DNA of 45,044 bases from Spirochaetales bacterium. Lineage in GTDB: Bacteria; Spirochaetota; JAAYUW01. The DNA lies in the NCBI GenBank assembly GCA_012797605.1, contig JAAZOT010000021.1, positions 1-45,044 on the forward strand, given 5' to 3'. Shown piece after piece: positions 42,883 through 44,122 of this stretch. Numbering within the stretch: position 1 is the stretch's first letter; the number at the start of each line of letters is the position of its first letter. The position numbers and the translations under genes are program-made. The notes under the pieces are model-generated. The model saw only the letters and a list, made by a program, of their open reading frames with translations. It ran no database searches and had not been told where the DNA came from.

Positions 42883-43512
42883 ATGATTTTTTTTATAATT
42901 TATTTATTAATTTCATTTTTAATTGGAGCAATACCAACTGGTCTTATTATTGGAAGGATTAAAAAAGTCGATATAAGAAGTCAAGGATCAAGAAATATTG
43001 GAGCAACAAATGTGACAAGAACTCTAGGTCCGATATTTGGCATCATAACTCTTTTTATAGACTGTCTTAAAGCCTTTTTCCCTTTAATTTTATTTAAACC
43101 TATTTCAAGTTATTTTTCAGCATCACAGCAACTATTAAATTTAGAATTAAGCAGATCCATAATAGCCGTTGCTATATTATGTGGCAATACATTTAATCCA
43201 TTTTTAAGATTTAAGGGAGGTAAAGGTGTAGCAACTGGTCTTGGAATAATGCTATTTTTAAATCCTATTGGAGTCGCAATATCTTTTGCCATTTTTTTTA
43301 TTACAGTTCTTATTTCAAAATATGTATCACTTGGTTCAATTTTAGCTGTGATTACTATTATTATTTCATCTTTTTTTCTTTTAAAATCATTTTACATCAT
43401 TGGTGCTATTATTTTAATTGGTCTTATAGTTTTAGTTAGACATAAAGAAAATATAAAGAGACTTTTAAATTCCACTGAAAATAAATTTGCATTTAAGAAA
43501 AATAAAAAATAA
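42883..43512 (+). CDS. plsY: Glycerol-3-phosphate acyltransferase PlsY
   Basis: GAIPTGLIIGR, IRSQGSRNIGATNVTRTLG, FKGGKGVATGLG. Confidence 0.94.
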   Translation: MIFFIIYLLISFLIGAIPTGLIIGRIKKVDIRSQGSRNIGATNVTRTLGPIFGIITLFIDCLKAFFPLILFKPISSYFSASQQLLNLELSRSIIAVAILCGNTFNPFLRFKGGKGVATGLGIMLFLNPIGVAISFAIFFITVLISKYVSLGSILAVITIIISSFFLLKSFYIIGAIILIGLIVLVRHKENIKRLLNSTENKFAFKKNKK

Positions 43513-43556
43513 AATTTTATGATATATCCATTTTTTTAAGTTTTATTTTTTACATA

Positions 43557-43644
43557 AACTAAAGTTATAATAAGGATAAATTAAAGTTATAATAAATATG
43601 AATTAAAATTATAATGAAGATAACTTAAAGCTATAAGAAGAGAA
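43557..43644 (+). repeat. Four tandem 22-bp degenerate repeats
   Basis: AACTAAAGTTATAATAAGGATA / AATTAAAGTTATAATAAATATG / AATTAAAATTATAATGAAGATA / ACTTAAAGCTATAAGAAGAGAA, directly upstream of the merR-like start codon. Confidence 0.85.
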
Positions 43645-43648
43645 ATAT

Positions 43649-44044
43649 ATGGAAAATGATAAGATCTATTATTCTATTTCAGAGGTTTGCAAAATTTGTG
43701 AACTTAAACCTCATACTCTTAGAAGTTGGGAAGAAGGTATAGTTGCATTAAAACCAAAAAAAAACAAATTTGGACATCGCATTTATACAAGTCAGGATAT
43801 AAAAAAAATAAAGATAATAAAAAAACTTGTATATATTGATAAATTGTCAATTAAAGGGATAAACGATTACTTTTTATCCAAATTTAACAATACAAAAGCA
43901 CAAAAAATAGCTGAGATTCAAAGTTTATGGTATGAAATATATGATAAAACACAAAATTTAAAAAAATTTATTGACAATTTGGAATCAAATGGTATTTTGC
44001 ATTTCGTAAGCCGAGATAGCTCAGTCGGTAGAGCAAAGGACTGA
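43649..44044 (+). CDS. MerR-family transcriptional regulator-like protein
   Basis: YYSISEVCKICELKPHTLRSWEEGIVALKPKKNKFGHRIYTSQDIKKIKIIKKLVYIDKLSIKGI winged-helix motif. The 3' 35 nt overlap tRNA-Phe. Confidence 0.85.
   Translation: MENDKIYYSISEVCKICELKPHTLRSWEEGIVALKPKKNKFGHRIYTSQDIKKIKIIKKLVYIDKLSIKGINDYFLSKFNNTKAQKIAEIQSLWYEIYDKTQNLKKFIDNLESNGILHFVSRDSSVGRAKD
43971..43998 (+). promoter_or_regulatory. Promoter-like element for tRNA-Phe inside the merR-like CDS
   Basis: TTGACA (43971-43976)-N16-TATTTT (43993-43998), 11 nt before the tRNA. Confidence 0.55.
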
Positions 44045-44082
44045 AAATCCTTGTGTCGGCGGTTCGATTCCACCTCTCGGCA
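44010..44082 (+). tRNA. tRNA-Phe (GAA)
   Basis: 73-nt cloverleaf: GCCGAGA/TCTCGGC acceptor, GCTCAGTCGGTAGAGC D arm, AGGACTGAAAATCCT anticodon arm with GAA, T arm GGCGGTTCGATTCCACC. CCA is not encoded. Confidence 0.96.
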
Positions 44083-44085
44083 TTA

Positions 44086-44122
44086 GGGGCTCTCCTTAGA
44101 CTAAGGATAGCCCTTTTTTTTT
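44086..44122 (+). terminator. Rho-independent terminator after tRNA-Phe
   Basis: GGGCT-c-TCCTT-agact-AAGGA-t-AGCCC stem followed by T run. Confidence 0.85.

Follow-up and report, generated by a model that had tools for sequence, protein, structure and literature searches.

How does a bacterial coding region come to end inside a tRNA gene, and is such an ending put to regulatory use? The question is raised by a merR-like gene of a Spirochaetales bacterium, which we analyzed within a 45,044-nt stretch of contig JAAZOT010000021.1 (the window). A sequence-only reading of the window had claimed that the merR frame has no stop before tRNA-Phe and closes at a TGA at 44042-44044, and the ORF call, ARAGORN and Rfam confirmed this. 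The frame enters the tRNA by 35 bases on the same strand. The same reading had placed the stop codon in the anticodon stem; we found that the TGA corresponds to tRNA positions 33-35, in the anticodon loop, and that it uses the first two anticodon bases of tRNA-Phe(GAA). The last 11 residues of MerR are encoded by tRNA sequence, and the last 20 (residues 112-131) form an extension past the stop of the orthologues. The coordinates of the features are given in Table 1.

Table 1. Features of the merR/tRNA-Phe locus (positions in the window)
Feature	Position	Strand	Remarks
plsY, upstream neighbor of merR in all four species	42883..43512	+	
ORF for merR-like HTH protein, 131 aa	43649..44044	+	no stop before tRNA-Phe; ends ...GILHFVSRDSSVGRAKD*
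Probable tRNA-Phe promoter in the merR tail	43971..43998	+	TTGACA 43971-43976, 16-nt spacer, TG-extended TATTTT 43993-43998
GAA codon at the orthologous stop site (proposed lost stop)	43982..43984	+	TAA there in G001 and G003
tRNA-Phe (GAA)	44010..44082	+	ARAGORN and Rfam
TGA stop of merR, U33-G34-A35 of tRNA-Phe, anticodon loop	44042..44044	+	counted from 44010
Intrinsic terminator of tRNA-Phe: G+C-rich hairpin, then U run	44085..44122	+	-17 kcal/mol, z -2.8

The merR ORF matched Pfam MerR_1 at 2.3e-16, and its N-terminal HTH was recognized by PF13411 over residues 8-75 with 60.1 bits against a cut-off of 21.6. Scores for the HspR, MlrA, CueR and ZntR subfamilies were far under the NCBIfam curated cut-offs. 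The protein was 79% identical to that of a same-genus relative, and the two genes differed by 19, 8 and 50 changes at codon positions 1, 2 and 3, respectively, with a dN of 0.13 against a saturated dS of ~2.2 (NG86). The MerR_1 domain, the 79% identity and the concentration of changes at third codon positions indicate that merR is a genuine gene, and comparison of the two sequences indicates that it is under purifying selection. The locus thus holds a same-strand 3' overlap in which a genuine CDS has its stop within a genuine tRNA. We rejected recoding of the TGA, since 8 of the 37 ORFs counted in the window close with TGA, which is an ordinary stop here. We surveyed 123 tRNAs that had 300 nt or more of upstream sequence in the spirochaete loci fetched. 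Apart from merR, no genuine CDS ended inside any of them; a second same-strand open frame read through a tRNA cluster and looked spurious. Linkage of merR to a tRNA as a phylum-wide trait was also rejected, because 25 of 26 fetched loci with MerR homologues in other spirochaete families had no nearby tRNA; the remaining one had a tRNA-Pro ~0.7 kb away.

We compared the locus with those of three relatives, G001 and G002 from the same genus and G003 from another family of the same order. All four species share the order plsY-merR-tRNA-Phe and an identical phase between merR and the tRNA. In all three relatives, however, an in-frame merR stop precedes tRNA-Phe, so that the overlap was conserved in none of them, an outcome that the sequence-only reading had itself named beforehand as contradicting its proposal. 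PlsY identity to the window was 0.60 for G001, 0.52 for G002 and 0.53 for G003, which makes G001 the closest. At codon 112, TAA in G001 stands against GAA in the window, and there are no indels between this site (43982-43984) and tRNA-Phe. G002 has GAA at the old stop site like the window, and a 45-nt insertion supplies its in-frame TAG. This insertion, lying between the merR tail and tRNA-Phe (L003), contains the near-repeats TGACAAGCCTTAG and TGATAAGCCTGG. The sequence-only reading had also listed a sequencing frameshift near 43990-44010; we found none, given that the phase and the distance from TTGACA to the tRNA are the same in relatives.

These alignments also bear on whether the missing stop is an artifact in which a consensus or assembly error made TAA into GAA. 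The genome is a fragmented draft of 104 contigs and the single copy of its species among those available, which leaves room for such an error. On the other hand, the preceding codon also differs from that of G001 (TTG versus ATA), the pair TTG GAA is common to the window and G002, and no frameshift is required; we consider a base error very improbable. Since G002 shares the GAA, the opening of the frame may predate this species, which counts against a simple species-level loss. The pattern would fit either two stop losses (window and G002) or one genus-level loss followed by a regain in G001, and parsimony gives no preference.

The MerR orthologues were 111-130 aa long and lacked the window's tail, the G001 orthologue having 111 residues. 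The frame is open and MerR appears to be under purifying selection, two points in favor of a functional role for the tRNA-encoded tail in the protein, for example in altered dimerization or as a degradation tail. Such a role seems very unlikely, however, as the tail is absent from these orthologues, its sequence is dictated by the tRNA, and it occurs in one genome only.

We then considered how tRNA-Phe is transcribed. The TTGACA-16-TATTTT element in the merR tail was the top-scoring site of the local promoter scan (10 of 12), although the number of promoter-like sites around 43971 was no higher than in shuffles. The TTGACA starts exactly 39 nt before tRNA-Phe in the window, G001 and G003. Among 33 distinct tRNAs, those identified by ARAGORN in the loci of the same genome that were covered (L033-L065), 16 had TTGAC at -33 to -50, compared with 0.43 expected from background frequency. 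TTGACA ~35-50 nt upstream is thus a strong tRNA promoter signature in this genome and is usable for annotating tRNA transcription units. Because of the conserved -35, this genome-wide signature and the terminator downstream, tRNA-Phe is probably transcribed as a separate unit, from a promoter of its own inside merR to a terminator of its own. The supply of tRNA-Phe, the only tRNA-Phe among the 33, therefore need not depend on a merR transcript. The embedded promoter would also explain why the distance and phase between merR and the tRNA are constant. In G002, the original TTGACA has been displaced by the 45-nt insertion and now lies 84 nt upstream of tRNA-Phe.

The 16 nt that separate the two elements of the putative tRNA-Phe promoter contain a perfect 5-bp dyad, ATTTGgaatCAAAT, at 43977-43990. 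MerR proteins often bind in promoter spacers. We nevertheless rejected a MerR operator at this promoter, whether for autoregulation or for control of tRNA-Phe, since the dyad is unconserved and not rare by chance: none was found in the spacers of G001 and G002, only A/T palindromes were found in that of G003, and 6% of the 16-mers in the window hold such a 5-bp repeat.

RNase P cleaves at the 5' end of tRNAs. The sequence-only reading had claimed that this cut would leave a non-stop merR mRNA, and for a merR-tRNA co-transcript in this one genome the logic is sound: cleavage after 44009 would remove the stop codon and leave a message ending ...CAT TTC GTA A (...HFV). The cut piece has 120 translatable residues and spans all of the 111-residue G001 orthologue. 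A tmRNA tag could destabilize its product, and the genome has a tmRNA gene (L063) that exceeded the Rfam cut-off by 155 bits and was not reported by ARAGORN.

The further step of that reading, that expression of MerR and tRNA-Phe is mutually exclusive by this mechanism, found no support. Seen as a switch, a shared transcript would have two fates: ribosomes complete MerR by reaching the UGA, or RNase P frees tRNA-Phe, after which the protein made from the non-stop merR mRNA is tagged through tmRNA and degraded. The geometry is right, the gap between merR and the tRNA has no room for a terminator, tmRNA is present, and for selB/tRNA-Sec the same model was put forward earlier (PMC8124441). These points are opposed by the conservation of the overlap in none of the three relatives and by the tRNA-Phe gene's apparent promoter and terminator, and we found no link here between this MerR and tRNA-Phe function. 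We therefore regard a switch as very unlikely. With four genomes compared, a switch confined to this lineage keeps a small probability. It is highly improbable, too, that in this lineage the two genes vie for one transcript, on which release of the tRNA by RNase P leaves a non-stop merR message with a tmRNA-tagged product and MerR accumulates only if ribosomes are faster than tRNA processing, a relation that, if true, would tie the level of the regulator to RNase P or translation activity.

The best fit is given by the alternative that the sequence-only reading had mentioned, in which the original stop was simply lost. We conclude that the overlap very probably reflects a lineage-specific loss of the merR stop next to a tRNA whose promoter is embedded in merR. 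A sigma70-type tRNA-Phe promoter in the merR tail would fix the distance and the reading phase between the two genes. The frame would then have been opened by a point change from TAA to GAA at the ancestral merR stop (43982-43984), or an older GAA would have been kept there, and the next stop in phase would be the UGA in which U33 is followed by the first two of the three anticodon bases (GAA). As this is the first stop inside tRNA-Phe in this phase, loss of the merR stop ends exactly there, barring an intervening stop. MerR would gain a 20-residue tail that is presumably tolerated. The overlap itself would be tolerated if tRNA-Phe is made mainly as a monocistronic transcript from its own promoter to its own terminator; a merR message that extends into the tRNA would lose its stop codon whenever RNase P cleaved it. 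The rarity of the overlap matches expectation for an accident.

The arrangement is likely a new example, with different genes, of a rare but known one, for which the non-stop model is already published (PMC8124441). In that study (Mukai 2021), selB runs into or through tRNA-Sec (selC), and repression through RNase P and a non-stop mRNA was proposed, as a hypothesis there too. The selB stop of Dyella/Luteibacter lies inside the tRNA (residues 46-48), close relatives stop earlier, and selC is nested in Alphaproteobacteria. Both systems have a same-strand CDS with its 3' end running into a tRNA; unlike selB/selC, the present case involves an elongator tRNA-Phe and an unrelated MerR regulator, has a recognizable tRNA promoter inside the CDS, and was seen in one genome only. 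Clade conservation is what gives the selB case its interest, and the merR case lacks it. CDS-tRNA overlaps are also known from animal mitochondria; in Armadillidium vulgare, for example, cox1 contains tRNA-Lys (Doublet 2015, as cited in PMC8124441). They are similar in direction and in that processing conflicts with an intact mRNA, but they belong to a compact organelle genome, whereas this bacterial genome is ~2 Mb and its tRNAs have individual promoters. AntiFam-type ORFs overlapping tRNA genes, a screen for which is mentioned in PMC9710616, likewise give a peptide translated from tRNA sequence; going by their description, they are spurious proteins, whereas merR is a genuine gene with a short tRNA-derived tail.

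The locus provides a clean natural case of a bacterial coding region that ends in a tRNA, with the stop of close relatives placed ahead of that tRNA. It suggests that such overlaps can originate by accident, through promoter-fixed spacing, stop loss and the UGA in the tRNA-Phe anticodon loop. Without showing a new mechanism, it is a useful null model for claims of regulatory CDS/tRNA overlaps.

The gap between plsY and merR holds a 22-bp tandem repeat of 3.8 copies, ATAAATTAAAGTTATAATAAAG, at 43554-43636. None of the three relatives has it, and elsewhere in the genome there are only two weak partial matches. Most copies carry a TATAAT-like box, and the array extends to the ribosome-binding region of merR.
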